From assembly GCA_907165275.2 (NCBI GenBank), contig OU015664.1:10936001-11000000 (forward strand): DNA of 64,000 bases. The letters run 5' to 3'. Below are positions 1,064 to 44,166 of the stretch, piece by piece. Each line of letters starts with the position of its first letter. Position 1 is the stretch's first letter. The stretch is from Zygaena filipendulae. Taxonomy: Eukaryota; Arthropoda; Insecta; Lepidoptera; Zygaenidae. The translations under genes and the position numbers were made by a program. Under the pieces are notes generated by a model. It was given only the letters and a program-made list of their open reading frames with translations. It made no database searches and had not been told where the DNA came from.

Positions 1064-1065
1064 CG

Positions 1066-10417: not shown

Positions 10418-10576
10418 TCACGACGTCGAGTTAGGCTTGTTCCCAGACTTCTCGTAGCCTTCGATTAGTGTTTCCAGTATGAACTTTATTGTTATTTTGT
10501 AAATACTTTCTACATTAGGCGTGTAGCGATCGCCCAAAGTTGACTCTACGGCCGCCAAGAACGGAGCTTCGATTTT
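10418..10576 (-). CDS. Globin gene, exon 3 (C-terminus)
   Basis: Codes residues 143-194 and the TGA stop (10418-10420). It opens in phase 0 after the acceptor TTTCTTTTACAG (preceded by a long pyrimidine tract). It continues from ...VEYFW of exon 2 with KIEAPFLAAVESTLGDRY, then SIYKITIKFILETLIEGYEK, which fit globin helices G and H. The intron position just before it corresponds to the conserved globin intron G7.0. The last ~10 residues (GNKPNSTS) are a short polar tail. This exon is too short for a default ORF call and was found by looking for the missing G/H helices. Confidence 0.93.
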   Translation of the reverse strand, partial: KIEAPFLAAVESTLGDRYTPNVESIYKITIKFILETLIEGYEKSGNKPNSTS

Positions 10577-10620
10577 CTGTAAAAGAAAAAGAAAAAAACT
10601 TGATAAGAATAGGATTGTAT

Positions 10621-10810
10621 TCTCAATATATTATACAAGCGAATGAGTTTATTTGTTTGTTTGTTACACTTTCACGCTTTAACGGCTCACCCGATCACCA
10701 TGATATTTTGCATACACGTCAGTCCAGAGCAGGACAAATGGTACTTTTTATCCCGGTATTCCCACGGGAACTCCGAAATTAACCCGGGCAAAACCGCGGG
10801 GAACAGCTGA
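10621..10810 (+). mobile_element. Helitron-like element Hel-4 beside the exon 3 acceptor
   Basis: Starts TCTCAATATATTATACAAGC and ends AACCGCGGGGAACAGCTGA (CTAG mutated to CTGA). Antisense to the globin gene. Confidence 0.65.
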
Positions 10811-10999
10811 TAATATAAAATATATAAAACCAAAAAACTGACTGACTTGTTCGAATAAATTCAAATTCATAAAATCAAATCTCGTCGTCTTTAAGAATTA
10901 CTTTCTGCAATCCAAAATTAAAAGTACCTAAGTTATGGTTGGCAGGTATAACAACAACTCAGTCAGTATTCCTACTATTATCAGTAAAACTAACCGGTT

Positions 11000-11267
11000 G
11001 CTTTATCGAACTAACATGTTGATACTAAACAAACAGTGAAGGGTTGAAACTCATAGTATCTATGCATCCGGTAGATAGGGACGGACGGACGCCCAAACTT
11101 TGGACTTCCATACGAAAAAAAAGTAGCGATATCTCATATCATTTATTATTAAGAACCATAAAAAATTGAGATAGTCTAATGAACTGGAAGCTAGAGTGCC
11201 AATCGATGATTTCCATCTCGTTTCGAATTCTGAAACTCATGCGGGTGAAACCGCAGGGCACAGCTAG
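11000..11267 (+). mobile_element. Helitron-like 3' end, Hel-5
   Basis: Only the terminal part is convincing: CTCATGCGGGTGAAACCGCAGGGCACAGCTAG followed by T (11226-11267). The left limit is uncertain. Confidence 0.5.
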
Positions 11268-11526
11268 TAGTAGATATAGAAGTACATGCACAACACACCC
11301 TTTTAAAAATTAAGAAGGCGTAAAATACTTTTACAAACTTTTGAGAAAGTTGATTTCTCCGGAGTCACGTTCCAAGTTCATAATAACTTCCATAACTTAT
11401 TACAGCACATATTTTCCAACTTTGTCACTCAGGGCGGAAATAAATAGTGAATTCTCAACGAAGAAGCAGTCTGATGAAACATCGGGATAAAGGGAGGTAG
11501 GTATTACAGTACGAGTAAACATTAGA

Positions 11527-11720
11527 CTAGCTGTTCCCTGCGATTTCACCCACGTTCATTTCGGAGTTCTCACAGGAGTTCGGGGATAAAAGTACCTACT
11601 CTACGCCCTTTTCTGAACCCCTGACAATGTGTTTGATTTTCATGATGATCAGTTGAGCAGGTAAAGCGTGAAAGGGTAATAAACAAACAAACAAATAAAC
11701 TCCCTTTCGCATTTTAAGGA
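11527..11720 (-). mobile_element. Helitron-like element Hel-6
   Basis: Plus-strand view begins CTAGCTGTTCCCTGCGATTT; (TTTG)n appears as AACAAACAAACAAATAAAC. 5' end (TC) placed near 11719. Confidence 0.6.
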
Positions 11721-11884
11721 TTCTATCGTCATGGGATTCCAATCTGACCAAGACAGTTTTTTTTTTCAGCATGTGTTTCCGATTTTTGACTTAGCCCATC
11801 TACGCACTCCCCATTTGGCTTATCACCGACTTTAAGATCGATCAGTGGTAGGTTGTGAAAAAAACATACGCAACGAATTGAGAA

Positions 11885-11914
11885 CCTCCTCCTTTTTTGA
11901 AGTCAGTTAAAAAA
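11885..11914 (-). repeat. CCGACTTCCAAAAAGGAGG motif fragment
   Basis: Reads AACCTCCTCCTTTTTTGAAG TCAGTT on the plus strand. Same motif at 35014, 37464, 52838, 58145 and 59026 in this window, so it marks one repeat family. Confidence 0.5.
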
Positions 11915-12110
11915 AGATGTTTTTGGAATTCGAAGCCGGAAAAAATTGTAGCTCAGGTCCGTATACGTATTATGTACCCCTACCTACTTATCTGATTTAT
12001 TCACAATGCAAATTAAAAACAATATGTTCATACTAAAAGAAAATATGTGTGTTTTCCTTCGATGTCGGGGAAAAACACAGATATTTTCAGTGGACTTTCA
12101 ACGTAGAATA

Positions 12111-12307
12111 TCCCTACATAGCATATATAACACGCTTCCCGCTGTCTGTCTGTCCCTGTGTATGCTTGGGTATTCTTTAAAACTATACTTTGATGAGGTT
12201 TTTTTTAATAGATAGAGTGATTCAAGAAGGTTTATACGTATAGTTTATCCTGGAATTCCCGCGGGAACTCCGAAATTACCGCGGGTGAAACCGCGGGGGA
12301 CAGCTAG
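12111..12307 (+). mobile_element. Helitron-like element Hel-7
   Basis: Starts TCCCTACATAGCATATATAA after A and ends ACCGCGGGTGAAACCGCGGGGGACAGCTAG before T. The hairpin is perfect. Confidence 0.75.
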
Positions 12308-12639
12308 TGTTCTCTAAACAACGTAGAATATATTCACTAAATTGTGTGCGTGTAAAACATTTGATGATAAATTCATGTAAATATGTCATAAAATATTTTC
12401 CCAGGACGACTTTGTTGTTCTTTGTCTTTCATGATATTAAATTACAGTAAGCCGTCATGTACCTACTTGTGCCGAGACTCCGACGTAAAAAGGCTATACG
12501 GATTTACGATTCTTATTAAAACATGAAGCGGAACCACTTACCCATACGTTATATTTATTTTATTATTCATCCAACATTTCACTTAAATTGGGAAATGCGC
12601 AAAGTATGGAGTAATTTACGTCATACCTATATGACGATC

Positions 12640-12755
12640 TTCCATGAGCAATCGTGTACCATTGCCAGGAGTACAAAAAGGACATGGAGTGCTTTTATCC
12701 CAGAATTCCTGCGGGAACTCCAAAATTAACGCGGGTCAAACTGAGAAAACAGCTA
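12640..12755 (+). mobile_element. Helitron-like fragment Hel-8
   Basis: Eroded 3' half: AAAAGGACATGGAGTGCTTT, GAATTCCTGCGGGAACTCC, then CGCGGGTCAAACTG and CAGCTA. Confidence 0.5.
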
Positions 12756-13666
12756 CCTTGTAGTACCTATACCTACTTACGTAATAAATATAATAGACTC
12801 CTTTTAATAATATATTTTAGATTTATTTTAGGTTAGGTTAGGTTTAGTTTTAGTATATTTTAATAATTTAAAATAATATTATGTAACTAAATAATATATT
12901 TATAGACTACCTACGCAAATATGCCTAACATAATATGTCTAAACTAAGTAATTCTGCCATTCAGGCGCTGCTAATTCAAATGTGAATTGTAGATAGAAAG
13001 TCAACAAAAAGCAGCGGGTTGTGACATGAGTTACATTGGTGAATAATTTAATAGATGCTAATTAATTGCGTAGGTATATGCCGCTTTTTAACACTCTGAC
13101 ACTAATTTCGACAGATTGTAAATATAATGCACAAGGGTTATGTCAAACAAGATACAAAGATCAGCGATCAGTGGGTGAATCAGTGATAATAATAATAATA
13201 ATATTTGTTTGGCATTATCTTGTGAAAGGTAAGAGATTTTTTATTCAAACTTTAGATTTGTTAATTAGAAGATTTAAAGTGAGTAGGTTTAATATGTAAA
13301 GTCTCTAATCGACAGTGGCCCGAAATGGTTTATGTAAAACCATGGTTGGCGTGTCACCCTTTTGTTTTGCAAACTTGGCTGACACTGCCGTATGTCTAAA
13401 CGTACGTTTGTTAACACGAACGCCTGCCAGAAAAATCATAGCATTTATACTGAGATCGCTTTGTACCTAGTTAATACAACAATCAATATTATATACGCAA
13501 AAATCTAATATTAAAAAGGTCATTCTACCACCTAAAATTACCCTTTTTACTTAGTGATTTTTATAATTTTAGTTTCGTGCATGCAGGACTTGATTATGTC
13601 CTTCGTTCTACTTTATACCCTGTGGCGTATACATTCATTTCTCTATGGTGTACAATGGATACTCAC
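12756..13666. other. Spacer in intron 2
   Basis: AT-rich. Holds (ATA)n near 13187. No element boundaries or coding frame that I can support. Confidence 0.5.
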
Positions 13667-13898
13667 CCAAAAATATTCAACTTTGAAGCCCGGTATCCGT
13701 CTGTGGCTGGCACCCACTTGGTGTATATACTCGAAGAAGTTGTCCAGGTCATCTAGCCCCTTTATCCCCTCGTCCAGGGTGTTCATGACGTTGTTGGCGT
13801 GTTCCGCCAGCTCCATGGAGTTGATCTGCTCTTCCCGCGTCTTGCACTGTCGGAACTTCTCGAACATGTCCAACAAATCCTGATTCTCCTCGAACAAT
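13667..13898 (-). CDS. Globin gene, exon 2 (heme pocket)
   Basis: Completes codon 65 with its first base A (phase 2), then runs LFEENQDLLDMFEKFRQC... to ...IPGFKVEYFW (residue 142). Donor GTGAGT follows. It carries the heme-contact residues: Phe77 in DMFEKF fits CD1, His98 in LAEHANNVM fits distal E7, His130 in VGASHRRIPG fits proximal F8. The Leu-rich LDDLDNFFEYI segment fits helix F. The acceptor is CGTTCCTCCACAG. A TGAC 24 bases upstream could be the branch point. A neuroglobin/globin X type family match is clear; the exact globin class rests on the acylation motif in exon 1. Confidence 0.95.
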
Positions 13899-13934
13899 CT
13901 GTGGAGGAACGAGAATTGGGTGTCATTTTTTACA

Positions 13935-14450
13935 CTAGCTTAATGGTTCCACCCGCGCCAATGGGGATGTGGACTACTTTTGAAAATCAAAATTCTAATT
14001 AGTCCGTCAGTTAGAAAATTAAAAAACAATAGACACGTATTTTTTGCTTTTTCAAATAAATTAAAATATACAGAGATAAAGCGCATTAAAGTTTAGGGTG
14101 AGGGGGTCGTGACGTCACTAACCGCTAAAACCGCCATACAAACTGTTAGAATAGTGACGTCACGCGAATTTTCTACTCAATATATCGCCGTTATTTTTTG
14201 ACTAGGTAAAAAAAGAAAAAATACTTGTCCAGTATTTTTTAATAATCTAAAAGACGGACTAAAAATTAAAAATTTGTCAACATGCCTATTTCGGAGTTTT
14301 ACGAATTTAAGAAATGACGATGGAATTTTTTTTTCCAATATCTCCTAAAACCAAGCGCTCCAAGCTGTCAAAACCAACTGTCAAAACCGCATGATGAAAT
14401 CCGTTCTATAGTTGGGGAGATTAGCGCGAACAGGCAGACACAGAGAAAAA
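13935..14450 (-). mobile_element. Helitron-like element Hel-9, split by family A
   Basis: Its 3' tip (CTAG at 13935-13938, AGCTTAATGGTTCCACCCGC in plus view) lies 36 bases upstream of exon 2. After the family A insertion it resumes with TTTCGGAGTTTTACG. The region around 14385-14440 (CGCATGATGAAATCCGTTC, GCGCGAACAGGCAGAC) looks like the 5' part of the longer Helitron type. Left/right limits of the distal part are approximate. Confidence 0.55.
13963..14286 (+). mobile_element. Family A MITE, copy 1
   Basis: Begins GGGGATGTGGACTACTTTTG and ends GGACTAAAAA...TTGTCAACATGCC. Two intact TGACGTCA sites ~45 bp apart flank CCGCCATACAAACTGT. Non-coding. Inserted in Hel-9. Confidence 0.8.
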
Positions 14451-14566
14451 TAAATTAAAAATAGTTTCTTTTGTGTTGCTCTTATTGCTCCCAATCAATG
14501 TTTTGCTAACATATTCAATGTAGGTATATATTACATATTAATCTCAACATTTTTTTATTATTAAAA

Positions 14567-14989
14567 CTAGCTGTCCGGCTCGGTTTCACCCGCGATAATG
14601 GGCATGTTGACTAATTTTTATTGTTTAGTCCGTCTTGTAGATTATTAAAAAATATTGAACACGTATTTTTTCTTTTTTTACGTAATCAAAAAATAACGGC
14701 GATATATTGATTTGAAATTTCGCGTGACGTCACTATTCTAACAGTTTGTATGGCCGTTTTGCGGTTAGTGGCGTCACGACCTCCTCATCCTAAACTTTAA
14801 TGCGCTTTATCTCTGTATATTTTAATTTATTTAAAAAAGCAAAAAATACGTATCTACTGTTCTTTTATTTTCTAACTGACGGACTAATTAGAATTTTGAT
14901 TTTCAAAAGTAGTCAACATCCCTTTCCATGCCAACTTTGTAACCCCTTTTCAGTCAGTTTCTGCTTTTACACAGGTACTTATATATAGA
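14567..14989 (-). mobile_element. Helitron-like element Hel-10, split by family A
   Basis: Plus view starts CTAGCTGTCCGGCTCGGTTTC and is broken at CGCGATAAT. It resumes with TTTCCATGCCAACTTTGTAA and ends ATATATAGA before T. About 25 bases of the Helitron are missing at the insertion when compared with the related copy at 42.1 kb. Confidence 0.65.
14600..14922 (-). mobile_element. Family A MITE, copy 2
   Basis: Opposite orientation to copy 1: GGGCATGTTGACTAATTTTT ... AAAAGTAGTCAACATCCC. One TGACGTCA intact, the other changed to TGGCGTCA. Confidence 0.8.
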
Positions 14990-15276
14990 TAATTCTAGAT
15001 AAATGAAGCTCTTTCGGAATATTTCTTCCTTGCAGCGTCGAAAGAGAATCCCCGGCGACGAAATTAACTTCTACGTGTGAGTTGACTGGCAATAGCTTTT
15101 GTTTCTAATCTAGTGAGTAGCACTTGTGCCGTCCGCACCCCTAATAACGTCTTACCCGACGGGGCCCGGCCTAATAGGGTCATTCATTACAAACGTGGCG
15201 GGCGGGTGGCCATTTTGTTTCTAATGATGTAGCTGCGTACATAATGAAGCAAATTGAAAAAGTTTCACGTAGAATA

Positions 15277-15601
15277 GGGATGTTGACTACTATTGAAAAT
15301 CAAAATTCTAATTAGGCCGTCAGTTAGAAAATAAAAAAAAACAATAGACACGTATTTTTTGCTTTTTCAAATAAATTAAAATATACAGAGATAAAGCGCA
15401 TTAAAGTTTAGGGTGAGGGGGTCGTGACGTCACTAACCACAAAACCGCCATACAAACTGTCAGAATAGTGACGTCACGCGAAATTTCAACTCAATATATC
15501 GCCGTTATTTTTTGATTACGTAAAAAAAGAAAAAATACGTGTCCAATATTTTTTAATAATCTACGAGACGGACTAAAAAATAAAAATTAGTCAACATGCC
15601 C
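15277..15601 (+). mobile_element. Family A MITE, copy 3
   Basis: GGGATGTTGACTACTATTG ... TTAGTCAACATGCCC. Both TGACGTCA sites intact. 325 bp. Confidence 0.85.
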
Positions 15602-15705
15602 ATTAATTAGGTATATCTGTGAGAAATGCGCCGTTCCGGCTTCATACTGCTTCAAGCTTGGGATTCCTTCGGCAATCGTTTGAATCTATAGGTAATATAT
15701 TAAAG

Positions 15706-15909
15706 CTATAGTTGTGCCCCGCGGTTTCACCCGCGTTAATTTCGGAGTTCCCGCGGGAACTCCGGGATAAAAAGTACCCTATGTGTTAATCTGATGTATG
15801 AGCTATATTATTGTAAAGTTTCATTTAAATCCATTCAGTAGTTTTTGCGGGAAAGAGTAACAAACATCCATCCATCCATCCATCCATACATTTTATAATA
15901 TTAGTAGGA
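15706..15909 (-). mobile_element. Helitron-like element Hel-11
   Basis: 3' tip altered to CTATAG; hairpin GCGGTTTCACCCGC perfect; (CATC)n near the 5' end; 5' end TCCTACTAATATTATAAAAT after A. Confidence 0.75.
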
Positions 15910-15924
15910 TAAATAAATAAATAA

Positions 15925-16113
15925 TCCCTACTACTATTAATTATAAATACGAAAGTAACTCTGTCTGTCTGTTACGCTCAACCGATCATCACGAAATTTT
16001 GCATAAACGTTGTCATGGGTACAGAAAAAGATATAGAATACCTAATTTTATCCTAGAATTCCCGCGAGATCTCTAAAATTGACGTGGGTTAATTTAACCG
16101 CGAGGAATTTTGG
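15925..16113 (+). mobile_element. Helitron-like element Hel-12, 3' end eroded
   Basis: Starts TCCCTACTACTATTAATTAT after A; body GTTACGCTCAACCGATCATC; 3' part only ACGTGGGTTAATTTAACCGCGAGG, no CTAG. Lies 15 bp from Hel-11, 5' end to 5' end. Confidence 0.65.
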
Positions 16114-17224
16114 ATGGAAATTTGACTCAGAGATAAATTATTCTAGTTTGGAATAAATAGAGTAACTTTTTTCGACACTTCTAACAGTTACCGTTATATT
16201 TCAACCAATTTACAATGAACCTTGACAAATTGCGTACCTAAACCTTTCTCATGAACCCCTCTATCTATTGGTACAAACCGCATGAAAATCCGTTTAGTAC
16301 TTTTTGAGTTTATCGCAAACAGACAGACGGATGAGGCAGAGTCCTTTTTTATAATATGTTGTGATACATGGTAAAATTCTTGCTTAATTCGAGACCAGCT
16401 GGTGCGGTGTGATAAAATCCATGCATTATTATTGTTTACATTATGTGCTGTGAAGTTTGTTTTATTATGCAAATGAAGGTCTTCAGACAATAGCTTGGGA
16501 CCTACGAGATTATGCCATAACATGCCGCTCGCGAGCCCAAGCTGTTCCGTATAGCGAAATAAAGTCGCCATCCGAAATTTCTTCTCAACGCCCGGAACCC
16601 AAAAAAGGAGCTTTGCATAACTTTTTACGAAGTCCATGTAAACTTTCCCAGCCCGTGACATCAAATCAGTAAACTTTCATTGTTATGCTTACTTATAACT
16701 TGCAAACCTACCTTGCAAAACCTTTTAACAAATTCCTAACTATCCGCCATCCGTGAACCATTGATGAGGAAAGATGTCTTTTAATTTTGTAAAAAAATAA
16801 ATACGTATTAGTTTTTGCCAATCACTGCACTCATACGTAGGTCTACCTACTATGCTATAAAATTAATTGATTATTGTAATTAATTTTATAGAGCCAAAAC
16901 CGAAGTGGTAACGTAATCTACACATCTTAATATAAAGCCCGAACTTCAGCGAATCAAACTCCAAGTTTATAACCAATCAAGACTAATTTTAATAGTATGT
17001 AACCCAAATTAACTAATGAAACCTTTTCAATGTCATTATCATATCGTCGAGCTTTGAAAGCTTCCTGAAAGTAATTAAAGTGCCTCCATCAGTTAATACA
17101 AGATTAGGTATACAGTGTGTAACGGCAAATTGAAATAATATTCAATCGAGTGAACATATTGTATGCTACTTGTAGGTACCTAGCAAAAAATCACCAGTAA
17201 AAATTTTGATAGAAAAATGAACTT
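16114..17224. other. Spacer with eroded repeats
   Basis: Contains CCGCATGAAAATCCGTTTAG and CGCAAACAGACAGACGG (16278-16330), words of the longer Helitron type. A 156-codon minus-strand frame (16194-16664) crosses these repeat words and has no domain that I recognise, so I do not call it a gene. Confidence 0.45.
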
Positions 17225-17395
17225 TTGTGTTCCCGCGGGAATTACGGGATGAGAAGTACTCTATGACACTCAGGAGCACTGTAGCATTCCATTGGTAAAA
17301 TAATTTCCAAAATCGGTTCAGTAGTTCCAGAGATTACCCCATTACCCCCTACAACGTCACAAACTCACAAACTCACAATTCACAAACTTTAGAAA
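17225..17395 (-). mobile_element. Helitron-like fragment Hel-13
   Basis: GTTCCCGCGGGAATTACGGG, ATCGGTTCAGTAGTTCCAGAG and repeated CACAAACTCA. Related to the unit repeated in tandem at 49.8-50.2 kb. Confidence 0.5.
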
Positions 17396-17589
17396 GAAAG
17401 AAAAAAAGAAAGAAAAGGCATTTACTATATTAATTGTGTTGTGTCAAGAAAAGGCATTTATTTGGAAACATAAATGCCTCCACACAAAGAGGTGTTTGTT
17501 TGCGTGGTGCGTCCCCATGACCAAAACGGTCACTGCCTCAGCATGTTGCTATGAGTGCGACCGGAGATTCACAAATATAAGATCCTATT

Positions 17590-17807
17590 TCCTACTAATA
17601 ATAGAAACGCGAAAGTTTGTAAGAATGTATGGATGGATGGATGGATGGATGTTTGTTACTCTTTCACGCAAAAACTACTGGATGGATTTAAATGAAACTT
17701 TACAATAATATAGCTTATACATCAGATTAACACATGTGTACTTTTTATCCCGAAATTCCCGCGAGAACTCTGAAATTAACGCGGGTGAAACCGCGGGGTA
17801 CGATTAG
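17590..17807 (+). mobile_element. Helitron-like element Hel-14
   Basis: Starts TCCTACTAATAATAGAAACG, (GGAT)4 near 17632, ends AACGCGGGTGAAACCGCGGGG TACGATTAG before T. Confidence 0.75.
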
Positions 17808-18139
17808 TACATAATATGTCACAGTCTATATGCATAAATTTAACTGTTTTTTGTTACTTATTAGTATAGATATAATATGTATAGATTAAGATAGGACTAC
17901 ATAATTACCTAAGCTTTAAATTAAAGTACCTACCCATTCATTACAACAAAGTTCTTTATCGCAAGGTACGGATGGGAGTAAAAATTCATTTTCCGTCACG
18001 GCGTTGCGCGTCGTACGGCTGCTCTACGTAATAACAAAGCAACTGTAAATTTTTGTACAATTTTATTTCGGTTTCAATAAAAAGACTTTTTCATTTTTTT
18101 CTATTTCATACAAATATACGTTGTTATACATACATATAT

Positions 18140-18232
18140 ACCTAACGTGTTTGCTTTGTCTCCACGACACAGTAGCTTCATGTGGGTTCGGGTAGATCGT
18201 GTGTTATGAAGTGTTAAGTAATGAGGTTTTGT
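18140..18232 (+). mobile_element. SINE 3' part, diverged
   Basis: AACGTGTTTGCTTTGTCTCCACGACACAG ... GTTCGGGTAGATCGTGTGTTATGAAGTG matches the 3' body of the SINE copies at 2.5 and 46.75 kb. Confidence 0.5.
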
Positions 18233-18504
18233 TTTATCGACTTTGTCAAATACACACAACATATTATACATACAAGAGTTTACCGAAGGTGTTAAAACCT
18301 TTTTTGTAAGTTTTCTAATATACAATGGGAGTTTTCTTTTGCTATGTTCCTTTTTTACTATTAATTTAAATTTGACAATATATAAGAATATTCAATTGAC
18401 AACATATCTTTAATTACCTAAAATATCTATATTTTTAACTATGGAATATTCATATCAATAGAAGGGCATCATAAATGTTCGTCTGTCTACGACGCGCGAC
18501 GTAA

Positions 18505-18707
18505 TCCTACTAATATTATAAATGTGAAAGTGTGGATGTTTGGATGTTTGTCTGTTACTCAATCACGCAAAAACGACTGAACGGATTTAGAAGAAATTTG
18601 GTATGCACATTGTCAAGGGTATAAAGAGGGACATAGGATACTTTTTATCCCGGAATTCCCGCGGAAACTCCGAAATTACCGCGGGTGAAACTGCGGGGTA
18701 CAGCTAG
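18505..18707 (+). mobile_element. Helitron-like element Hel-15 (first of a tandem pair)
   Basis: A|TCCTACTAATATTATAAATG ... GCGGGTGAAACTGCGGGGTACAGCTAG. Joined without any spacer to Hel-16. Confidence 0.85.
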
Positions 18708-18906
18708 TCCTACTAATATTATAAATGTGAAAGTGTCGATGTTTGGATGTTTGTTACTCAATCACGCAAAAACGGCTGAACGGATTTGGATGAAATTTGG
18801 CATGCACGTTGTCAGGGGTACAGAGAAGGACATAGGGTACTTTTTATACCAGAATTCCCGCGGAAACTCCAAAATTACCTCGGGTGATACCGCGGGGCAC
18901 AGCTAG
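18708..18906 (+). mobile_element. Helitron-like element Hel-16 (second of a tandem pair)
   Basis: Starts TCCTACTAATATTATAAATG directly after CTAG of Hel-15; ends CACAGCTAG before T. Similar but not identical to Hel-15. Confidence 0.85.
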
Positions 18907-19452
18907 TTTTATATAAAAAAATATTTTATTTTATTTAACCTTGTTTTAAAATACCTACCTTTTTGCAGTTCTGAGATACATCTACCAGGATGTTAACATT
19001 AAGCAACAATGCAAGTAAATAGGTACTTTAAAGATATACGAGTAAGGGTTAAAAAAAATTGTGCAAAATCGGGTTTTTTTTAGGAAAAAAAACTATTTAA
19101 ATAAACCAGTGTTTATATTATCTAAAAATAAGTGCCAAAATATTTTGATTACACAAGAGTTGCTCGTTTAAAGCCATTAGATTTAACCTGTTTTTGCGTT
19201 ACACCTTATCACCTTAACAACACCGTCGTTCCGCGCAGTAAGTCGCCCCACGGGTTTGTCAGCTTTTGAGCTGAAGCCACTTCCGCAAACATTGTGACAG
19301 CTGAACGTTTTAATAATCCACTTCAGTTGATTCAAGCGACAAACAAACGGACGCATAAATATTAAATTATCTGTGGTTCCGACCAAGTAAAACAGAAGTA
19401 ACCCAGCCCTGTTATTTTGACCAGGACTAATGTACATAATGGTGCCCAAATT
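18907..19452. other. Spacer, nothing recognised
   Basis: AT-rich; the minus-strand frame at 19183-19494 ends in the LINE tail and is not supported. Confidence 0.4.
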
Positions 19453-19600
19453 ATGAATGAATGAATGAATGAAAAACACTTTATTGAACACCACAAACAG
19501 TACAATAAAAAAATATTTAGAAACGGAAAGTATTAAGTGGCTCCAAAAGGCGGCCTTATCACTTATTATGCTAGTATTTGTGAAGTTCGAGTCTTACTGA
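19453..19600 (-). mobile_element. LINE 3' end, (CATT)n tail
   Basis: On the minus strand: ...GTGGTGTTCAATAAAGTGTTTTTC followed by (ATTC)4. The same 3' end occurs at 51166 and 61797. Strongly 5' truncated. Confidence 0.65.
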
Positions 19601-19907
19601 TATGCCCAAAAATAGGTTTAGGTATGATTTTTCGTTCTTTCTAGATGCAATAAAATTTTAGGAAAATAAGCTAAGTTATTCAGCCCTTAAGATTCTGAAG
19701 ATAAGAGAAGAAGATGGGAAAAACAACGGTAAATAGTTCAAAAAATATTTTCTTGATCACAATAGTTAGTTACTACTTTGATAGAACAGTTAATTAAAAT
19801 AAATCCCAATAAATATTTCTTTTACTAGGTACTTCTTTTTTTTCCTTTCTACTCTAATCATATACGTAGGACGTAGGTATACCATATACGATTATATTAT
19901 GATATAG

Positions 19908-20113
19908 TCCTACTAATATTATAAACGCGAAAGTTTGTAAGTATGTATGGATGGATGGATGGATAGATGGATGTTTGTTACTCTTTCACGCAAAAACTAC
20001 TGGATGGATTTAAATGAAACTTTACAATATATAGCTTATACATCAGATTTTTATCCCGGAATTCCCGCGGGAACTCCGATTTTACCGCGGGTGAAACGGC
20101 GGGGCACAGCTAG
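19908..20113 (+). mobile_element. Helitron-like element Hel-17
   Basis: TCCTACTAATATTATAAACG ... GCGGGTGAAACGGCGGGGCACAGCTAG before T; (GGAT)n near 19948. Confidence 0.8.
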
Positions 20114-20736: not shown

Positions 20737-20756
20737 GGGGGCACGGCAGTGCCCCC
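20737..20756. repeat. GC-only 20-bp palindrome
   Basis: GGGGGCACGGCAGTGCCCCC: 8-bp perfect arms, 4-base loop, in an AT-rich setting. The sequence around it (to ~21060, with TCACTCACTCACTCACTGACC and CTAAGGCACTTCTAGCAGAC) looks like part of an interspersed repeat whose ends I cannot place. Confidence 0.6.
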
Positions 20757-21310: not shown

Positions 21311-21315
21311 TGAGA

Positions 21316-34051: not shown

Positions 34052-34069
34052 CCACGTTAAAGGGCGCCA
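34052..34069 (-). other. Primer binding site-like sequence
   Basis: Minus strand TGGCGCCCTTTAACGTGG, one base after the 5' LTR. TGGCGCCC is shared by many Lys-tRNA-type primer sites; three extra T separate it from AACGTGG. Confidence 0.5.
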
Positions 34070-34070
34070 C

Positions 34071-34879
34071 TGTCGCGCTTACTTTGAAGGAACGGTACGG
34101 AAGAAAAGGTCCGATGGATTGGCGACTGATTATTATTTATTGCCTTCCCGGCCCGTTCCCGGTAGATAGGTACAAGTAGGTACAATTAGCGACACTGGCC
34201 TCAGCGGTAAGTGGTAGGTGGCTCGTAGATGGTGACGACGCTGGTGCCGCGGCGGCTGCTGTAGGCAGCGGCTGGAGTACGCCTGGAGTAGTCCAGGAGT
34301 AGGGCTGGTAGGTGCCTGGAGTCTCGGCGGTAGATGGTAGGTGCCTGGAATGCGCCGGGGTAGTCCGGGGGTAGGGCTGGTAGGTGCCTGGAACCTGGAG
34401 CGAGGGCTTCGGTTACCATCAGCAAGTCCGTAGCTGGCTGCCTTTCCACCCCGTGAGAACCAGCGGTCGCAAGGTAGTAGCGATAGTGCTTTAGTAGGAA
34501 TTGCAGCCAGCCAGACTAGATTAAGCGAGAAGCAGCTTAGTAGTGTGAATGTGAATGAGAACTCACCCTAGAGGGTCATCAGCACTAGCACGTTTAGTAG
34601 GTACCGCGCGGTAGATGCGCAGTACCATTAGACAGCACAAATTAGTATGTGCGGTAGGCGCACATTTAAACGCACGTTAGAAAAGATTGGCCGCAACACG
34701 TACCCGCGTGTAGCGCGGTGCACGTGCAGCGGCCGTCTGTCAAGGCGTCGAGTGCCACAGGTCGGCTACTCGCCGTTAACCGGCACGGGTGCGCGGGAGG
34801 GGAATCTTTAGAGATTCACGATGCGCAGCGTGCAATAAAAATAGGTTTTATCTTCCGAATGTGAGTCTGCAACGTTACA
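34071..34879 (-). repeat. 5' LTR of the non-autonomous element
   Basis: No difference from 32027-32835 found on a base by base reading. Confidence 0.9.
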
Positions 34880-34883
34880 ACCT

Positions 34884-35660
34884 ATGTATGCATCAGTATA
34901 TAACTGTATACCTAAAATTATAAATCAAAATTAAATAATCATTGCTTACTTTTACTCGCATCGCAACAGAATAAATGAAAAAAAAAAAAAAAACATACAT
35001 ACAATCGAACATAGAACCTCCTCCTTTTTGGAAGTCGGTTAAAAACTCACTGATAATTAAAAAAAAAAATAGAGAACTACTTACCTAAACTCCCTCGTGA
35101 AGTTCAGGCGAATAAATCTGCAGGGAATTGTTACTACTTCAACTATAAAAATCAAACTGTATAAAGGCTATTCTCAGAAAGCGAGCGAGCTTAGTTTTTC
35201 TTTTATTTATATACTCTATTTTTTCATGTTTATAATGTCGTTTTAACTTTTTTCATTACCTATATTTTCTTTTGTATTTCTTTTCTTTTGTTTTTTTTTC
35301 TGCGCTTCTTAAAGTTGTATATCTGCCGAAAAACACTATTAGGACACAATTTATACTTCACTTTTGTTTACTTGTAAATAAGAAAAAAATAAGCAAAAGA
35401 TTGTTGATCTAAGTAGGTAAGGTAGTGGAACAAGTTTTCGAACTTCAAAACTTTAAATGTCAACCACATCGAAGCGGACGGTCCCCAGACCCCAGCTGCT
35501 ATATTATTCAGCTTATTTTCCACAGATCCGTGCACACGCCATCCACCTATATAACTGTTTTGAGAACTCCATCTGCAGTCAAACTTAATGTTTGCATCGG
35601 CCGATGACGCAAAGTTGCAAACCGCAGTAAGTATATGTATATACGTACTTATAAATACCT
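34884..35660. other. Spacer with CCGACTTCC motif
   Basis: GAACCTCCTCCTTTTTGGAAGTCGGTTAAAAA at 35012-35043 next to an A-run of 16. Rest unassigned. Confidence 0.4.
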
Positions 35661-35746
35661 ACAATGTGTTAATGAATTGACTGAAAACTAGAAAGTAGTT
35701 TGTTCAGAATCGACTTCCGAATCGGTTTAATATAGGTTATATAATA

Positions 35747-36078
35747 GGGATGTGGACTACTTTTCAAAATCAAAATTCTAATTAGTCCGTCAGTTAGAAA
35801 ATAAAAAAACAATAGACACGTATTTTTTGCTTTTTCAAATAAATTAAATATACAGAGATAAAGCGCATTAAAGTTTAGGGTGAGCGGGTCGTAACGTCAC
35901 TAACCCGTAAAACCGCCATACAAACTGTCCGAATAGTGACGTCACGCCAAATTTCAACTCAATGTATCGCCGTTATTTTTTGATTACGTAAAAAAAGAAA
36001 AAATACTTAATTTTTAAATTAATAATTTTTTAGTAATCTACAAGACGGACTAAAAATTAAAAATTAGTCCACATGCCC
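35747..36078 (+). mobile_element. Family A MITE, copy 6
   Basis: GGGATGTGGACTACTTTTC ... TAGTCCACATGCCC, nested in B. One TGACGTCA intact, the other TAACGTCA. Confidence 0.85.
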
Positions 36079-36270
36079 ATTTTCATTTTTACTAGCCCAT
36101 GTCTAAATTATTTATAATGCAATATTTAGCGCGTACGCCGCCGCCTGTAGCAAAAAAATTCGAATCGGTTATTAACACGTAGGCGCGGGCGTAGCGCTTG
36201 AAATTTCGTAGATAGGTCACCTCCAAACTAATTTCGACATAATTTAATTTAATCATAATTATTATTGTTT

Positions 36271-37056
36271 TTGTTTTGCTACTAAACTACGTCAAAACTC
36301 CCATTAAACCATATAATGCTGGTGAACTGGAATATGTTAACGAATATACATACTTAGGCCAAATAATATCTCCTACAGACATCACAACAAGAGAAGTTCA
36401 AAATAGAATAAACCTAGGATGGAAGAGATACTGGGCTCTAAAAGATGTAATGAAAAACTCGGATATACCAATTGAAGAGAAGAAAAAAATATTTAATACA
36501 TGCATCCTACCAAGCATGACCTACGGATGTCAGACATGGAGTTGTACAAAGAAAAATTTCAAATCACTGGAAACTTGCCAACACAGAATGGAAAGAAGCA
36601 TACTCAACATCAAATTAAAAGACAAAATTAGGTTAAAAACTATCAGAAAACGAACCAAGATTATAGATATAAAATACCAAATCAAACGACTCAAATGGAA
36701 ATGGGCAGGACACCTATCAAGAAGTATGACAGAAAAATGGACGAACGAAGTCACGGAATGGTGCCCTAGATATAAAAAGAGAAGTAAAGGCAGACAGTTT
36801 CGAAGGTGGGAGGATGATATTAAGGAGGTGGCAGGACCATGTTGGATGAGGATAGCAAGGGATAGATTGTTGTGGAGAACACTTGGGGAGGCCTATGCCA
36901 AGGAGCAAGACAATCTCGGAACCGGTGTCTAGTACAAATAATAACATTAATTAATACGTTGCTTTCATAAACAACCATATTGAATATTAGTAATACACAA
37001 GTAATATATAATATGAAATGTAACATATAAGATTGTTAATAAAGGCTTTTATTATT
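36271..37056 (+). mobile_element. 5'-truncated RTE-clade LINE
   Basis: Holds the C-terminal part of the RTE reverse transcriptase frame, a ~120-base 3' UTR and an (ATT)n tail. Family B sequence ATTATTATTGTTT is on both sides (36258-36270 and about 37057-37069), giving a ~13-bp duplication that merges with the tail. Confidence 0.85.
36276..36932 (+). pseudogene. RTE LINE reverse transcriptase, C-terminal 218 codons
   Basis: Open to its TAG. Opens inside the frame at EYVNEYTYLGQIIS, then GWKRYWALKDVM, FNTCILPSMTYGCQTWS, ERSILNIKLKDKI, LKWKWAGHLSR, GRQFRRWEDDIKEVAG, WMRIARDR. This run is diagnostic for the region after the catalytic core of RTE-clade elements. Endonuclease and catalytic domain are missing, so it cannot act alone. 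Few signs of decay: a fairly young insertion. Confidence 0.92.
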
Positions 37057-37121
37057 ATTATTATTGTTTATTTTTTTAAATGGGGTGTATCAGGTTTTTG
37101 ATTAATTCATTAACACGTTGT

Positions 37122-37579
37122 ATATGTATAATGTAGGACTATAGGTATATACCGGAGCATCTGTTTGTGGCGTGTTTTTCTTTTCCATTAATGCCTTTTA
37201 AGATATTTCATATAATAAGAAACCAAAAATTCGATACCAACGTAAAATAAAGTATTTAATTACATACATTTTGTAAAAAAAATATTTTTATTAAAAACCG
37301 CCTTTTGTGCTTTAACAAAGTAACATTCTATTTATTTCATCGTCGTAAGATTTTTGTGAAGATCCGATTTTTTAGATTATAGAATGGAATAGAATAAAAT
37401 TCATTTTATACCAAAAAACAAATACGAAATTGGGGCTTAAACTAATGAAGATTAAACAATGGTCCTCCTCCTTTTTTATTTAGCAGTCGGTTAACAATGG
37501 CTACCGCTCAGCATATACCGTGGAACTAATCCAACGATGCTGATTTTTAAGCAACCGTAACAAGAGAGATGGTTAAAAT
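37122..37579. other. Spacer with a LINE tail
   Basis: Minus-strand LINE end GGTATAAAATGAATTTTATTCTATTCC at about 37383-37415, and a decayed CTCCTCCTTTTTTATTTAGCAGTCGG near 37462. Confidence 0.45.
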
Positions 37580-37659
37580 TCAAAATTTAAATGTCTATTT
37601 ATAATGAAATTAACAGCTTTTCACTAAATGCATATAAAAGTAGAACGCTACTTACATTT

Positions 37660-37848
37660 TTTTTCTCTCTGTCTGTCCGTCTGTATGTTCCGGCTAATCT
37701 CTGAAATGGCTGGAGCGATTTTAACGGGACTTTCACTGACAGATAACTGATGTTATAAGAAGTAACGTAGGCTACGTTTATTTTAGAAAAAAATTGTTCC
37801 TGCGGGAATTCCGAAACTCACGCGGGAGAAATCGCGGGGCACAGCTAG
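37660..37848 (+). mobile_element. Helitron-like element Hel-26 (second subtype)
   Basis: CTGTCTGTCCGTCTGTATGTTCCGGC ... CTCACGCGGGAGAAATCGCGGGGCACAGCTAG|T. Confidence 0.7.
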
Positions 37849-39123
37849 TCTTACTATAAAATACCTTTACACTTGACCAAGTTCAATATATTATAGTTAC
37901 TAGTTATAGTAGTGTAAGTGTTAGCACGGGTTAGAAGTTGGAGCAATCAACACCCTTATCTGTAACGAGTGGGTACGATATTTACCCGCTTACCTATGTA
38001 GCAAAGATCCCTAAATTACGGTCCACACAGCGCAGAGTTTTGGGTTAATTGCTCCGTTATACTGCGTACTGTGGACACTCGTTCAGATGTCGTGTGGTTT
38101 CTGGCGTAAGTAGTTTGAGAAATGTTGTCGATCCAACATTGGCTTGAAGTATAAGATGAAGAGAAGAAAGGACGCTGTTTAATTAAAAATTACGATCATC
38201 GTGAAGTCCTATTTATTTTCTCAAGTGATTGCCTACTGAAATTTTCAATTATCGATGGTTAGTTTAAAGAAAATGAAGCAAAATACAGCATTTTAAGTCG
38301 TTGCTGTCATATTACTTTACTCCATGCTTTTAAAGTATTCAAATTTCGAATTTTATTTTTTTTCTCTCTTAAAAACCCGTTCCGTGCTCAGGTTAAACAA
38401 AATGACTGCTGACAGGTGGCTGAGCAACGAACGCTTGTTCTCTTCACGACTCCCTACCGGAAAGAACCATTTAGGGTCTGTACTGTTTTTCATTCGCCAA
38501 ATAAACTTCATCTGAAGAAAATTTTTACATTTTAACGTCACAAAAACTGTCAAAACTTCAAAATCGTTATTCGTCAGATAAAGTTAAAGCGAAACACAGT
38601 GGCGTTTCTTGGCTTCTCGGCCTTAGCTTCTCGGCTGTCATTATTGTGTCGTGTAGCAAGACAAATTGTCAAGATTGTCAACCGCACAGCCGGCAAGTTC
38701 GTGTGTTGAGAAAAGAATAAATACATATTTCATTTCGCCTCGCGACATCTTGCCTTTTGTATTCAAATCTTGGAAGTGATACGTCCTTGACATGTGCACA
38801 CATCGCATAAACCTTAATATAAGAGACGCACTGGTTTCCGAGTATGGATCAGTCTGGATGCTGGGAATTAGTACTGCTTGGCTAGTAGATATACTTTCTA
38901 TAGTAAAAAGCAATTGAATCTACTTATCCCTGTTATTTCAAATGCTAAAGTAACTCTATCTGTCTGTCTGTCTGTTACGCGTTCAAACCATAACGGCTCA
39001 GCCGATCATCGCGAAGTTTTGCTTACGTTTTCAGAGGTAGAAAAAAAGGACACGGTAGATGTGAATACGTTCATACGCACTGTATTGGAGAATATTATTT
39101 TGTGGAACGTGTCTGACACACTC
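37849..39123. other. Spacer, mostly unassigned
   Basis: Contains GGCTTCTCGGCCTTAGCTTCTCGGC at 38611 (see rejected) and, at 38945-39015, a Helitron-like 5' half (TCTGTCTGTCTGTTACGCGTTC, GCCGATCATCGCGAAGTTTTG). 39060-39123 matches the right end of family E. Confidence 0.4.
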
Positions 39124-39235
39124 ACCGCCGCACTCAGAGTCGACTTTAAAACAAAACTGCCGCAAACAGAGACGTTCAGTAAATTAATGTTAATTGGCAT
39201 TTAACTAATTAAGTTAAATATGCAGTATAAACGGA
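39124..39235 (+). mobile_element. Family D fragment joined to family E ends
   Basis: GCCGCACTCAGAGTCGACTTTAAAACAAAACTGCCGC ... TTGGCATTTAACTAATTAAG, left flank ACGTGTCTGACACACTCA and right flank AAACGGACCTT as in family E. The family D piece appears to sit inside an E remnant. Confidence 0.6.
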
Positions 39236-39744
39236 CCTTACTACTGTTACATGATAAACACAGCTCAATGTATTTGACGAGCGCTATAAATTTCACATAA
39301 TTAAAAAAACTATTAACTGAATATTACAATCTAAATATTCCTATACATCAACCAATTAAATCAGCCTCGATTCTCTGATCGCTGAGATTTCGAGATTATA
39401 ATATTTATAACTACTTACAAAAACACTATACTGTGCTAATGGCAGCCATAAGTTTACTTCAAACTAGAAAAATAGAAACGAGATATAAAAACATAATATT
39501 ATGAACTGCCAACGTATTTCAAAGAATAAAATTTATATTCGTCTAGGTGGAGGATTTCTTAGAATTTTATCATGAAAGATGTAGATACTTATTCACGCAT
39601 GAAAAGAAATCAGACGTTGCTTGAGTATTGTGCTGATCTGTATGCGAGAAATATACACAAGCAAGTTCAATCGTTGAATCGGGATATTGGTCTTTTCGTT
39701 AAACCGTTATTTATAAAATATTTCTCAAACCATCTATTCTAATA
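39236..39744. other. Spacer, nothing recognised
   Basis: AT-rich, no supported feature. Confidence 0.4.
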
Positions 39745-39967
39745 CTAATTGTACCCCGCGGTTTCACCCGCGTTAATTTCAAAGTTCCGGGATAAAAAGT
39801 ACCCTATGTGTTAATCTGATGCATAAGCTATATTGTTGTAAAATTTCATTTAAATCCATCCAGTAGTTTTTGCGTGAAAGAGTAACAAACATCCATCCAT
39901 AACATCCATCCATAACATCCATCCATACATTCTTACAAACTTTCGCGTTTATAATATTAGTATAGGA
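39745..39967 (-). mobile_element. Helitron-like element Hel-27
   Basis: 3' tip changed to CTAA; hairpin GCGGTTTCACCCGC intact; CATCCATAA repeated three times near the 5' end; 5' end TCCTATACTAATATTATAAA. Confidence 0.75.
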
Positions 39968-40224
39968 AGTAGGATTACAAAGAAGTAAGTAGGTAGTTTG
40001 TGAATTTGATATTTACAAGTTATTTTTATAAGTTTGGATGTTGAGGTAGTCTCTCGAAATATTAAACTGTCTGTAAAAATTATTTTATTGATAGAAAGCT
40101 ATATTATCCATACGTTCGAGTATGAGCGTTTCAAAATAGTATTCTCAATTAAAAAAAGTAACAATCATATCTATTGTCTAATTATTTTCTAAAGTGTTTC
40201 ACTTAAAAGAAATTCATAGGAGAA

Positions 40225-40282
40225 CTAGCCGCTCCTCGCGGTTTCACATGCGTTAATTTCGGAGATCCCGCGAGAATTCTGT
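40225..40282 (-). mobile_element. Helitron-like 3' fragment Hel-28
   Basis: CTAGCCGCTCCTCGCGGTTTCACATGCG in plus view; breaks off at GAGAATTCTGTGC. Confidence 0.55.
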
Positions 40283-40510
40283 GCTATACTGAAATGAACG
40301 CAGCCCCACTGAACGCTTCCATAGTGCAGAACCTATCCCGCTCACTTATCTGTCTCTCCCTCTCTTGCGCTTAGCGACTAACCACGTAACAATGTATGAT
40401 TGTGTTTTGTGAATTAAATGCCTATTAATTAATTAGAGTGTTATTTACAAGATACAACAGTAGGTTTATACTCTTCTGTACTCTTGGCAACGTAGAGCAT
40501 TCAAAATTTA

Positions 40511-40697
40511 ATGAAGTTTCACCCGTGGTAATTTCGGAGTCCCCGCGGGAATTCCGGGATAAAAAGTACCCTATGTCCTTCTCTGTACCCCTGACAACGT
40601 GCATACCAAATTTCATCAGAATCCGTTCAGCCGTTTTTGCGTGGTCGAGTAACAAACATCCAAACATCCACACTTTCACATTTATAATATTAGTAGA
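40511..40697 (-). mobile_element. Helitron-like element Hel-29, 3' tip missing
   Basis: From AAGTTTCACCCGTGGTAATTTCGG to TTATAATATTAGTAGA. The last ~15 bases of the element are absent. Confidence 0.7.
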
Positions 40698-41000
40698 ATA
40701 AATGGCCATACAAATTACAAAACAAGAAAAGGGACAGACACCCGGGGGCTTATTTAAGGAACCGTGTGCCCCACTTTTAGTTCTTCCCCAATACATCACG
40801 CCGATAGCTGAACTTCCCAAACTTATTAGACCAAAAAAGCTGACATGTGACGCACGGCCCATAAATTTCTTCACCGCTTTGATGGCCGCTTGATTTATAG
40901 CTTTTTGTTTATTAGGTTAGGTTTTTCACTGAAAAGAAAAAGTATTTAGACGAGTGTGTTTGGCGGGAACCAATGGTGTCGGGTTTTTTTGTAGTTTAAA

Positions 41001-41700
41001 GAAGTTTATTTATTTATTTATTTATTCTTCTTGCACAAAATAGTACAAATGGCGAACTTAATGCCTTGCGGCATTCTTTGACAGTTAACCATTGGGTTGA
41101 CAGAGAGATAAAAGGAACGGGGTGTGCAACCTACGGAAAAAACGAAAATAAATAAAAATAATAGTATTAAAAACTAAAAACTGTTATAAACTAAGACATA
41201 AAAAAGGACTGAATATAGAGATAATTAATATATAAATATTACACAGCATAAAATACGTACTTAAATATTAAGGTATTATATAAATATACATAAATATATA
41301 TAAGTAAATATACACACACACACACACACACAGATATCACACACACCAAAAGGATTTCCAGAAACATTTAATAATAGGGATATCTAACTTAATACATAAT
41401 AGTTGAAAAGGTGGGAGAGTTCCGAACGACTGCAGGTTTTAAATGGCCACTCCTGGCAAGCCACCGGACTCTAAGAAATAATTTCGCACTCTATATTTGC
41501 ATATGAATTTGTCAGGGTATTTACGCAGCTCTAAGGGCAAGCTGTTTCAGAGTCGCACAGCAGTGAGAGCGAAAGATTTTGAGATGAACCCAGTACGATG
41601 GGAACGAATGCAGAGGAGAAGGTTGTTAGAGGAACGTAGTGGCTGTGAATGAATGAGTATCTGAAAGAAATTTGAATTGAGATTTTAAATATTCGGGACA
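41001..41700 (-). mobile_element. 5'-truncated LINE, jockey/CR1-type end, (AAAT)n tail
   Basis: On the minus strand the frame ends at TAA 41439-41441, followed by ~400 bases of 3' UTR and GTGCAAGAAG(AATA)n. Upstream edge approximate. (CA)10 lies at 41312-41331 in the UTR. Confidence 0.7.
41439..41640 (-). pseudogene. LINE ORF2 C-terminus with a stop in the LWNSLP motif
   Basis: Reads SKSFALTAVRL, stop, NSLPLELRKYPDKFICKYRV, then LESGGLPGVAI. The motif F..TAVRLWNSLP near the C-terminus is common in non-LTR reverse transcriptases of the jockey/CR1/L2 kind. The expected TGG is TGA here. Confidence 0.75.
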
Positions 41701-42114
41701 GTGTGGATCGTATAAAGAAAAGGGTTTATGGAGTCATTAACTGAAAATTTTCAAACTAAGTATAAGGTATGCTAATAAAAATAGATTCATTGTAACTTGA
41801 CGCTGTCTAAATGCACTGTATGCAAAAGATTGTAACAGATAGAAATGGTAGGTGTTATCTATGTACTAGTCTTTGCTGTGACGAAATTGTGAGCGTCTTT
41901 GCAAGAATTTCATTTAAGCTGAACGTATCTATCGGAGTGCATCACTGTAATTCATTCTGTTATTAAAATGTCTTCGAAGATCAAAGATAGTTCGAAGAAA
42001 AACTAGTGGCTAGCGACGGACAATACTTTGAACATTGAATGTAAAACCGATTTTTCGCAATAAAGCTTTAATTTAAAAAAAAAATCGTAAGAACTTATTT
42101 ATACTCTCAGAATA

Positions 42115-42357
42115 GACGAGCTGTCCCACGCGGTTTCACCCGCGATAATTTCGAAATTCCCGCGGAATTGTTCCATACAAACTTTGCAACCCCTTTTCAT
42201 CCCCTTAAGGGTAGAATTTTCAAAAAAATTTTCTTATCGGATGCCTACGTCATACAAAAAACCATACCTTTAAAGTTTCAGATCTCTACGACCAGCGGTT
42301 TAGGCTGTGCGTTGATCCATCAGTCATTCAGGACAAAGCAGTTCATATATTATGTAT
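42115..42357 (-). mobile_element. Helitron-like element Hel-30 (third subtype)
   Basis: Plus view GAGCTGTCCCACGCGGTTTCACCCGCG ... CCCCTTTTCATCCCCTTAAG ... GACCAGCGGTTTAGGCTGTGCG ... TATGTATAGA|T. Inverse copy at 48.2 kb. Confidence 0.7.
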
Positions 42358-42562
42358 AGATAGATCATTACGAGTATTAACACTATATTCGGTATTTTGT
42401 TTCACGCATTCTCAACACATTTCACATTTCTATACAGTCTCTTCCGTCATTTTGCTCTTTTTCTGCTGTCAATTTTGAGTTCGTTTTTTCGATCATCCAA
42501 TTATAGTTATCTGTTTTTAAATTGTGTTCCCTAAAATTTTTTTGTTATTGTTTTTGTTAATT

Positions 42563-42660
42563 CAATACTCAAATCATTTATTCAAATTAGGCCCATAATG
42601 TGGCTCTTTTTGACGTCAATAAAATTACAGTTTACAGTAGACAGCACCCAAATTTTTAGT
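42563..42660 (-). mobile_element. LINE 3' end fragment
   Basis: AGCCACATTATGGGCCTAATTTGAATAAATGATTTGAGTA on the minus strand (read in pieces). Same 3' end at 60.17-60.24 kb. Confidence 0.6.
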
Positions 42661-43046
42661 TTATAAAGCGTTAAGAGATATTCCCTTCGCACCCACCGGT
42701 GGATGGATAGAAAAAAGTAATTTAATAATATCATTAATGAATAAAAAACAAAGAGGAAAAGAAAAAAATGACTACGAAATGTGGGCGCTATATCTTCATA
42801 TCTAATTACAATTTTCCACAGCGTAATAATTGAAGAATCATAGCTTCGCAATCACCCAAAGGCCCTTAGCAAATTAGTCAGAACTCAGAACCCATTGTAA
42901 CACTGAAAAGAACAATCGTGGCAGCTCCAAAATAGTATAATGGATACGTGACGTGGGTGCGACGCGCGTTGAGCTCTAACGATATTGGACATGGAACAAA
43001 ACCCACGCTATATCTACAACCTACCTTTAAACAAGCAATTCTATAT
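42661..43046. other. Spacer, nothing recognised
   Basis: No supported feature. Confidence 0.4.
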
Positions 43047-43765
43047 ACAACGTGTTAATTAATTAACTGAAAACCTGATACACGCCATTTAAAAAAATTG
43101 ACAATAATATGATTAAAATATATTTTATGTCGAAGAAATTTAAACTTTAAAAGTTATTCAACATTAGTTTGGAGGTGACCTATTTACGAAATTCCAAGCG
43201 CTACGCCCGCACCTCAGATCGAATAAAAACTAAAGACGGAACGTCTCGAACAACGAAGTGAAGCCGGTTGCGTATGCATGTGGTGATTAGGAAAGTGTAT
43301 GGGTTTGCTAAGTTTACTTACCTACTGATGTTATGTGATTCCATGCTGTTTTTTTATTTTTTGACGTGTGATTGACCCGTTGACGACACAATATGGCATT
43401 TTACGTAATTGTTGCGTCACCTCCATTAGCGGGAGAAGCTCAAACTAAAATGTATGGTGTCTTTTTCTTGTAAGTGTGTGTGTGTGTTTCTGTGTACGTG
43501 CACGGCGTGGTGTCTTTTTCTGGGCTTCACTTGTTTGTTCTACGCGTTCCGTCTTTGGTTTTATTTGGTCTGAGGCCCGCGCCTACCGGTTCGATTTTTT
43601 TCGCTACGGGCGGCGTACGCGCCAAATATTGTATTATAAATAATTTAGACATGGGCTAGTAAAAATTAAAAAATATAACCTATATTATAACATAGTGCGA
43701 TCGATTCGCTTGTCGATTCTGAGCAAACTACTTTCTAGTTTTCAGTTAATTCATTAACACGTTGT
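43047..43765 (-). mobile_element. Family B MITE, copy 4, split by family L
   Basis: Inverse orientation to copies 1-3. Tips ACAACGTGTTAATTAATTAA and TTAATTCATTAACACGTTGT, TA flanks. Confidence 0.85.
43212..43575. mobile_element. Family L MITE nested in B
   Basis: Ends CCTCAGATCGAATAAAAACT and (complement) CCTCAGACCAAATAAAACCA with AAAGACGGAACG further in; ~50-bp inverted repeats. Duplication CCCGCA/CCCGCG at 43206-43211 and 43576-43581 matches the unbroken B sequence GCCCGCGCCTACC. Carries (GT)7 near 43473. Confidence 0.75.
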
Positions 43766-43794
43766 ATATATACATATGTATATTATATTATATT

Positions 43795-43832
43795 CTAGAT
43801 TTAACGCGGGTGAAACCGCCGGAAACATCTAT
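43795..43832 (+). mobile_element. Helitron-like 3' fragment
   Basis: TTTAACGCGGGTGAAACCGCCGGAAACATCTA, nothing upstream. Confidence 0.5.
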
Positions 43833-43972
43833 TAAGCAGATGAGAATACTTGATGTGTGCTAATCTTCTCTTGATTTCTAGTAAATGTTGTAAAAGAACC
43901 TCTACAGGGTGTTACTGAAAGATCGAGGAGAACGTGTGGTTAAATAATATACGCAAATAACAGTTCACTTAC

Positions 43973-44166
43973 TTGATGAACATACAAATCCCAGTTTTCT
44001 CCATGGCTCTCGATATGCCCTTCCATGATGCGAGCATCGAGTACTTCTGTTTCGCGGTGAGCGGGAGCCGCGGGTCCGTGGCGGGCGGAGGCGCCACCGG
44101 CAGCGCCTGGTCCACGTTCCCCGCCCTAAGCTCGGACTCCACCAATTTACCCAACTTACACCCCAT
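43973..44166 (-). CDS. Globin gene, exon 1 (acylated N-terminus, helices A and B)
   Basis: ATG at 44164-44166 (context AAAAATGGG). Codes MGCKLGKLVESEL, a Pro/Ala-rich linker (VAPPPATDPRLPL), then TAKQKYSMLASWKGISRA, where Trp48 fits the invariant A-helix Trp, then EKTGICMFIK. Gly2-Cys3 is the arrangement used for N-myristoylation plus palmitoylation. Such N-termini are known in metazoan globin X and arthropod globin X-like proteins; I recall the latter being the one kept in Holometabola, so that is the best class (inference). The exon ends at 43973 in phase 2 with donor GTAAGTGA. With exons 2 and 3 the protein is 194 residues, the right size for a globin with extensions. The alternative start 9 bases upstream (ATGTTAAAA) has no support, since it would bury the Gly-Cys motif. 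Confidence 0.94.

Follow-up and report, generated by a model that had tools for sequence, protein, structure and literature searches.

Do three short exons, strewn over some 34 kb of repeat-rich DNA, form a single intact globin gene, and if they do, to which class of arthropod globins does it belong? The question is raised by a 64,000-nt stretch of the genome of the moth Zygaena filipendulae (GenBank assembly GCA_907165275.2, contig OU015664.1, positions 10,936,001 to 11,000,000; G000:C15:10936001-11000000 in our numbering), hereafter the window, in which an initial annotation had placed a complete globin with ancestral introns. With high confidence we read this locus as a globin X-like (GbXL) gene of Lepidoptera, intact and arranged in tandem with a second GbXL gene 17.5 kb further downstream in the same orientation; the window gene is the conserved copy (A), its neighbour the other one (B). 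Globins of this kind are well described in insects, and the present gene is ordinary and not surprising.

An intact three-exon globin gene

The three minus-strand exons lie, to the base, where they had been proposed, down to the small size of the last one (Table 1). Joined in phases 2 and 0, they yield 585 nt, i.e. 194 codons and a stop, in an uninterrupted frame that encodes W48, F77, H98 and H130, the four residues named beforehand. All splice sites are of the GT-AG type, with donors CAA/GTAAGT and TGG/GTGAGT and acceptors CCACAG/A and TTACAG/A (slashes mark the junctions). The first junction splits codon 65 between its second and third bases, and the second lies just before codon 143; these positions agree with the ancient globin introns B12.2 and G7.0, as had been claimed, when helix positions are counted from W48 (A12), H98 (E7) and H130 (F8) in myoglobin numbering. 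Codons 65 to 142 run unbroken through exon 2, so that an E10.2 intron is absent, and a stop codon stands in frame 12 nt upstream of the ATG.

The 194-aa product matches the Pfam Globin family (PF00042) with an E-value of 2.8e-14. There were 299 homologues at E <= 0.001, of which 120 were listed and used (90% clusters, many without a species name); the best match among those listed is a 'neuroglobin-like' protein of Bombyx mandarina (P0001, 193 aa), 89% identical over its full length. When these 120 proteins were compared with the window by tblastn (E <= 0.01), every one of the 358 matches fell within the three exons (118 in exon 1 and 120 in each of the other two). Alignment to the same set revealed F CD1, H E7, V E11 and H F8 in all 120 homologues, G2 in 115 and C3 in 113, and 107 of them begin with MGC. 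The Zygaena product itself starts MGCKLGK and fits a PROSITE-type N-myristoylation pattern; acylation is predicted from this motif.

A search of the whole host genome (365.9 Mb) with one B-type GbXL protein (Manduca P0070) at E <= 1 gave six matches, namely the three window exons and the three exons of a neighbouring paralogue; such a search scores the best candidates only, and here all six were scored. Exon 1 was matched at G000:C15:10979957-10980166. Because all six matches resolve into two three-exon genes, no alternative partner was found in the genome for exon 1 or exon 2. Full-length homology across both junctions, together with this search, upholds the complete globin of the initial annotation. 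We find it scarcely credible that a dead or rearranged gene left these exons behind, with exon 1 an orphan, unspliced across 30 kb of repeats. The length and repeat content of intron 1 and the annotation of two relatives without exon 1 would be in keeping with such decay; against it, all frames are open, the splice sites are intact, the genome search turned up one other exon 1, that of the B gene, and identity to a complete Bombyx protein reaches 89% from end to end.

No further host gene was recognised by Pfam among 20 scanned of the window's 25 stop-to-stop open reading frames (ORFs) with a length of 100 aa or more: 16 had no match, two had weak matches below the cut-off (E 0.037-0.11) and two had matches above it. 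Neither Rfam (at the gathering threshold) nor ARAGORN gave any match in the window.

Table 1. Coordinates of the A gene, of signals near it (window positions) and of the B gene (contig positions)
Feature	Position	Strand	Remarks
Exon 1, coding	43973..44166	-	194 nt; runs from the ATG and the MGC acylation motif through helix A and most of helix B; phase 2 at its end (B12.2)
Intron 1 (B12.2)	13899..43972	-	30,074 bp, phase 2; repeat-rich
Exon 2	13667..13898	-	232 nt; last part of helix B through G6; F77 (CD1), H98 (E7), V102 (E11), H130 (F8)
Intron 2 (G7.0)	10577..13666	-	3,090 bp, phase 0
Exon 3	10418..10576	-	159 nt including stop TGA; G7 to C terminus
TATA-like hexamer	44238..44243	-	77 nt 5' of ATG; possible core promoter, a weak indication in A+T-rich DNA
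First AATAAA after stop codon	9936..9941	-	candidate polyadenylation signal, a weak indication in A+T-rich DNA
B gene exons	10928937-10928759, 10922719-10922488, 10919000-10918839	-	phases 2 and 0

Assignment to the GbXL class

The class had initially been left open, to be settled by alignment and phylogeny against the globin classes. Three such classes have been described in arthropods, according to the excerpts of PMC7457136 on which we draw. There, GbXL genes are divided into three exons by the introns B12.2 and G7.0, to which most globin X (GbX) genes add E10.2; most GbXL proteins carry predicted myristoylation and palmitoylation motifs; GbXL is highly conserved and occurs in almost every arthropod group, with an additional copy in moths; GbX was not found in Holometabola; and mean core identity is 67% for GbXL and 25% for the hemoglobin-like (HbL) globins of arthropods. 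The Zygaena gene combines a globin domain bearing F CD1, H E7 and H F8 with introns B12.2 and G7.0, the Gly2/Cys3 acylation motif and no E10.2 intron, the last being the feature of most GbX members. Its product is 61-91% identical to 22 arthropod homologues and 27-32% identical to 10 fish GbX, and in the tree it groups with the former, split from the latter at 100/100. Since tree sampling is limited and database names differ, the assignment rests on gene structure, motif and identity, together with the published absence of GbX from Holometabola.

A true neuroglobin is what the database names of the relatives ('neuroglobin' or 'neuroglobin-like') would suggest, and neuroglobins are indeed the best PDB matches after a tardigrade globin, both by sequence (E 1.2e-15) and by Foldseek (E 8.3e-7). 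However, the model superposes better on cytoglobin and myoglobin than on neuroglobin (template modelling score to query 0.69-0.75 versus 0.60-0.67, among the rows shown), neuroglobin is not among the 50 best structural rows by Z, and neuroglobin is reported absent from arthropods in the excerpts of PMC7457136; we regard this identity as very improbable. That the gene belongs to GbX or HbL instead seems to us most unlikely as well. An MGC start and the E7/F8 histidine pair also occur in GbX, and acylation motifs in some HbL, but the identities given above set the protein apart from fish GbX, exon 2 lacks the E10.2 intron that most GbX have, the average identity of arthropod HbL is low, and a separate globin exon elsewhere in the genome, with matches of cytoglobin type, is the likelier HbL gene.

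Several points weigh against reading the locus as an intact GbXL-A gene with the properties discussed below. Database names of its relatives read 'neuroglobin-like'. The trees hold no arthropod GbX, deuterostome GbXL, neuroglobin or HbL sequences, and none of their rows is labelled GbXL by its source. The joining of the exons across 30 kb is deduced from the sequence. Five further ATGs stand within 200 nt upstream of the start codon. Finally, hexacoordination would be argued from related globins and from the residues.

Proposed function

Assigned to GbXL-A by analogy with its class, the most likely role would be that of a membrane-tethered, hexacoordinate, non-respiratory neuronal globin. N-myristoylation of Gly2 and palmitoylation of Cys3 would tether the chain to the cell membrane, an anchoring that we hold to be very likely. 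The heme iron would be held between H130 (F8) and H98 (E7), so that O2 or other ligands would have to displace the distal histidine; such hexacoordination appears likely, if slightly less firmly so. Expression would be expected mostly in the brain. Rather than bulk O2 transport, the protein may serve redox protection of membrane lipids or redox/gas signalling, and we give a lipid-protective or redox-signalling role an even chance. Zebrafish GbX is hexacoordinate, its membrane localisation needs both acyl sites, and lipid protection or redox signalling was proposed for it (excerpts of PMC3176823); it is because acylation motif and heme pocket are shared that these properties are tentatively carried over to GbXL-A.

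A diverged tandem copy and a third globin

A second intact GbXL gene, of the B type, lies outside the window on the minus strand (G000:C15:10928937-10918839; Table 1), its start 17,480 bp from the stop codon of the A gene. Its introns measure about 6.0 and 3.5 kb, and its product, which begins with MGCK, shares the heme residues of A. Identity to the Manduca B protein (P0070) is 85% for this neighbour and 63% for the window protein. At about 10922487-10922460, B exon 2 has a weak donor, GTATTT, and a terminus of Helitron-like form begins about 19 nt into the intron; it may affect splicing.

A Pfam globin search of the genome returned three exon-2-type matches. One is the window gene, another lies on its strand 24 kb past exon 3, and the third is on a different contig. 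The last of these, at G000:C10:9313575-9313808, has cytoglobins as its best PDB matches (E 6.7e-10) and probably belongs to the HbL gene.

B-type genes form one clade (100/100) on a long stem (0.71, 0.84 and 0.88 changes per column in three trees); A branches are short, except that of Plutella. All 17 tree-placed B-type entries begin with MGC, and P0072, outside the trees, is a further likely B entry. A clade of lepidopteran A and B genes that excludes Trichoptera received support of 94/85, 93/90 and 90/88 in the three trees; the grouping of A with Trichoptera, i.e. an older duplication, was not rejected (approximately unbiased test, p 0.161 and 0.388). Monophyly of A was supported at 92/86 in one tree and 71/23 in another. 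Plutella was placed beside Aricia within A, a departure from the accepted species tree. Between A and B, dS is 2.8 and dN 0.28; because synonymous sites are saturated, the duplication is undated. A and B entries share one longest-contig figure in both Bombyx mandarina (15,957,419) and Aricia agestis (15,015,571), which suggests that the two genes have stayed linked in no fewer than two families. The A and B figures differ in Loxostege and Papilio machaon; this neither supports nor excludes linkage, as the entries may come from different assemblies.

It is about evenly balanced, in our judgement, whether this is an old tandem pair that arose at or near the base of Lepidoptera and stayed linked, with A tightly constrained and B long-branched yet retaining its heme and acylation residues. 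If it is, moths and butterflies would have two membrane globins that divide the work between them, unlike the single GbXL copy that is usual. The passages of PMC7457136 on moths, butterflies and synteny do not mention a tandem arrangement, and a limited literature search by title or abstract start found no paper treating one for moth GbXL. This pair, whose members evolve unequally, is all that the locus contributes to a known class, and the contribution is small. GbXL is widespread and conserved, and the pairing of a conserved and a diverged copy in Lepidoptera offers a handle on its function.

The first exon in gene annotation

The initial annotation held that gene finders would probably miss or split such a gene. 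This proved true of two of the six A-type lepidopteran entries, which lack the exon 1 part, and untrue of the other four, which carry it. The two incomplete entries, Loxostege P0059 and Papilio machaon P0094, lack that part exactly up to the B12.2 junction: their agreement with the window begins at residue 66, where exon 2 has its first complete codon, and in their N termini 4 and 6 of 35 residues are identical to the core of exon 1. The six entries were recognised by name, P0001, P0002, P0003 and P0005 being placed by the tree and P0059 and P0094 by identity (87% and 91%). Exon 1 was thus lost in 2/6 A-type versus 0/17 tree-placed B-type entries, counts that are small and rough, as they refer to named entries in 90% clusters. 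Where the first intron is long, annotation may miss a first exon that is short; in this gene, that exon encodes the putative membrane anchor.

Repeats in and around the gene

The 34 kb spanned by the gene had been described as transposons. In part this holds: the repeated fraction (self-matches of at least 50 bases at E <= 1e-6) is 32.7% for the window, 35.4% for intron 1, 25.2% for intron 2 and 0% for the three exons. These fractions are lower bounds because the window was compared only with itself. Transposon protein domains were not found by Pfam in the intron ORFs scanned. A 28-base terminus, a hairpin followed by CTAG that was picked after inspecting the window repeats, occurs in 27 window copies at up to 3 mismatches (0.00 expected), e.g. 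at 12280-12307 on the plus and 55043-55070 on the minus strand; intron 1 contains 14 of the copies and intron 2 another 3. We take its shape to recall Helitron ends. Lep1 Helitrons are widespread in Lepidoptera, according to an excerpt of PMC4038834.

Intron 1 also contains a near-perfect inverted repeat (21975-22541; arms of 267 nt, 99% complementary, 33 nt spacer), a foldback element, and two 300-nt direct repeats (32027-32326 and 34071-34370), 100% identical and 2,044 nt apart, which represent a recent duplication or element ends. Downstream of the gene, two adjoining ORFs at 197-1941 (minus strand) match a retroviral-type aspartyl protease and DUF7041 above the cut-off; they are probably part of a retroelement.

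Comparison with known globins

Closest to the window protein stands Bombyx mandarina P0001, an arthropod GbXL of 193 aa with the same MGC start, F CD1, H E7 and H F8; the N-terminal linker, at about residues 9-29, is somewhat divergent, and nothing essential differs. The B-type lepidopteran GbXL (Manduca P0070, Bombyx P0089 and the host B gene) share the MGC start and the heme residues with A, and the host B gene has the exon phases and strand of its neighbour; the 17 named B entries are 56-65% identical to A by BLASTP. The hexacoordinate globin of a tardigrade (PDB 5zm9/5ziq) is 38% identical to the window globin and superposes on the model of the Bombyx orthologue with a root-mean-square deviation of 1.0 A over 154 residues. 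It forms a very long branch in the tree; an outgroup search with it yielded only two tardigrade proteins. Zebrafish GbX (P0135) shares the N-terminal acylation motif and the His-His heme pocket with the Zygaena globin, but identity between them is 32% over 184 residues, and GbX typically has the E10.2 intron that the window gene lacks.

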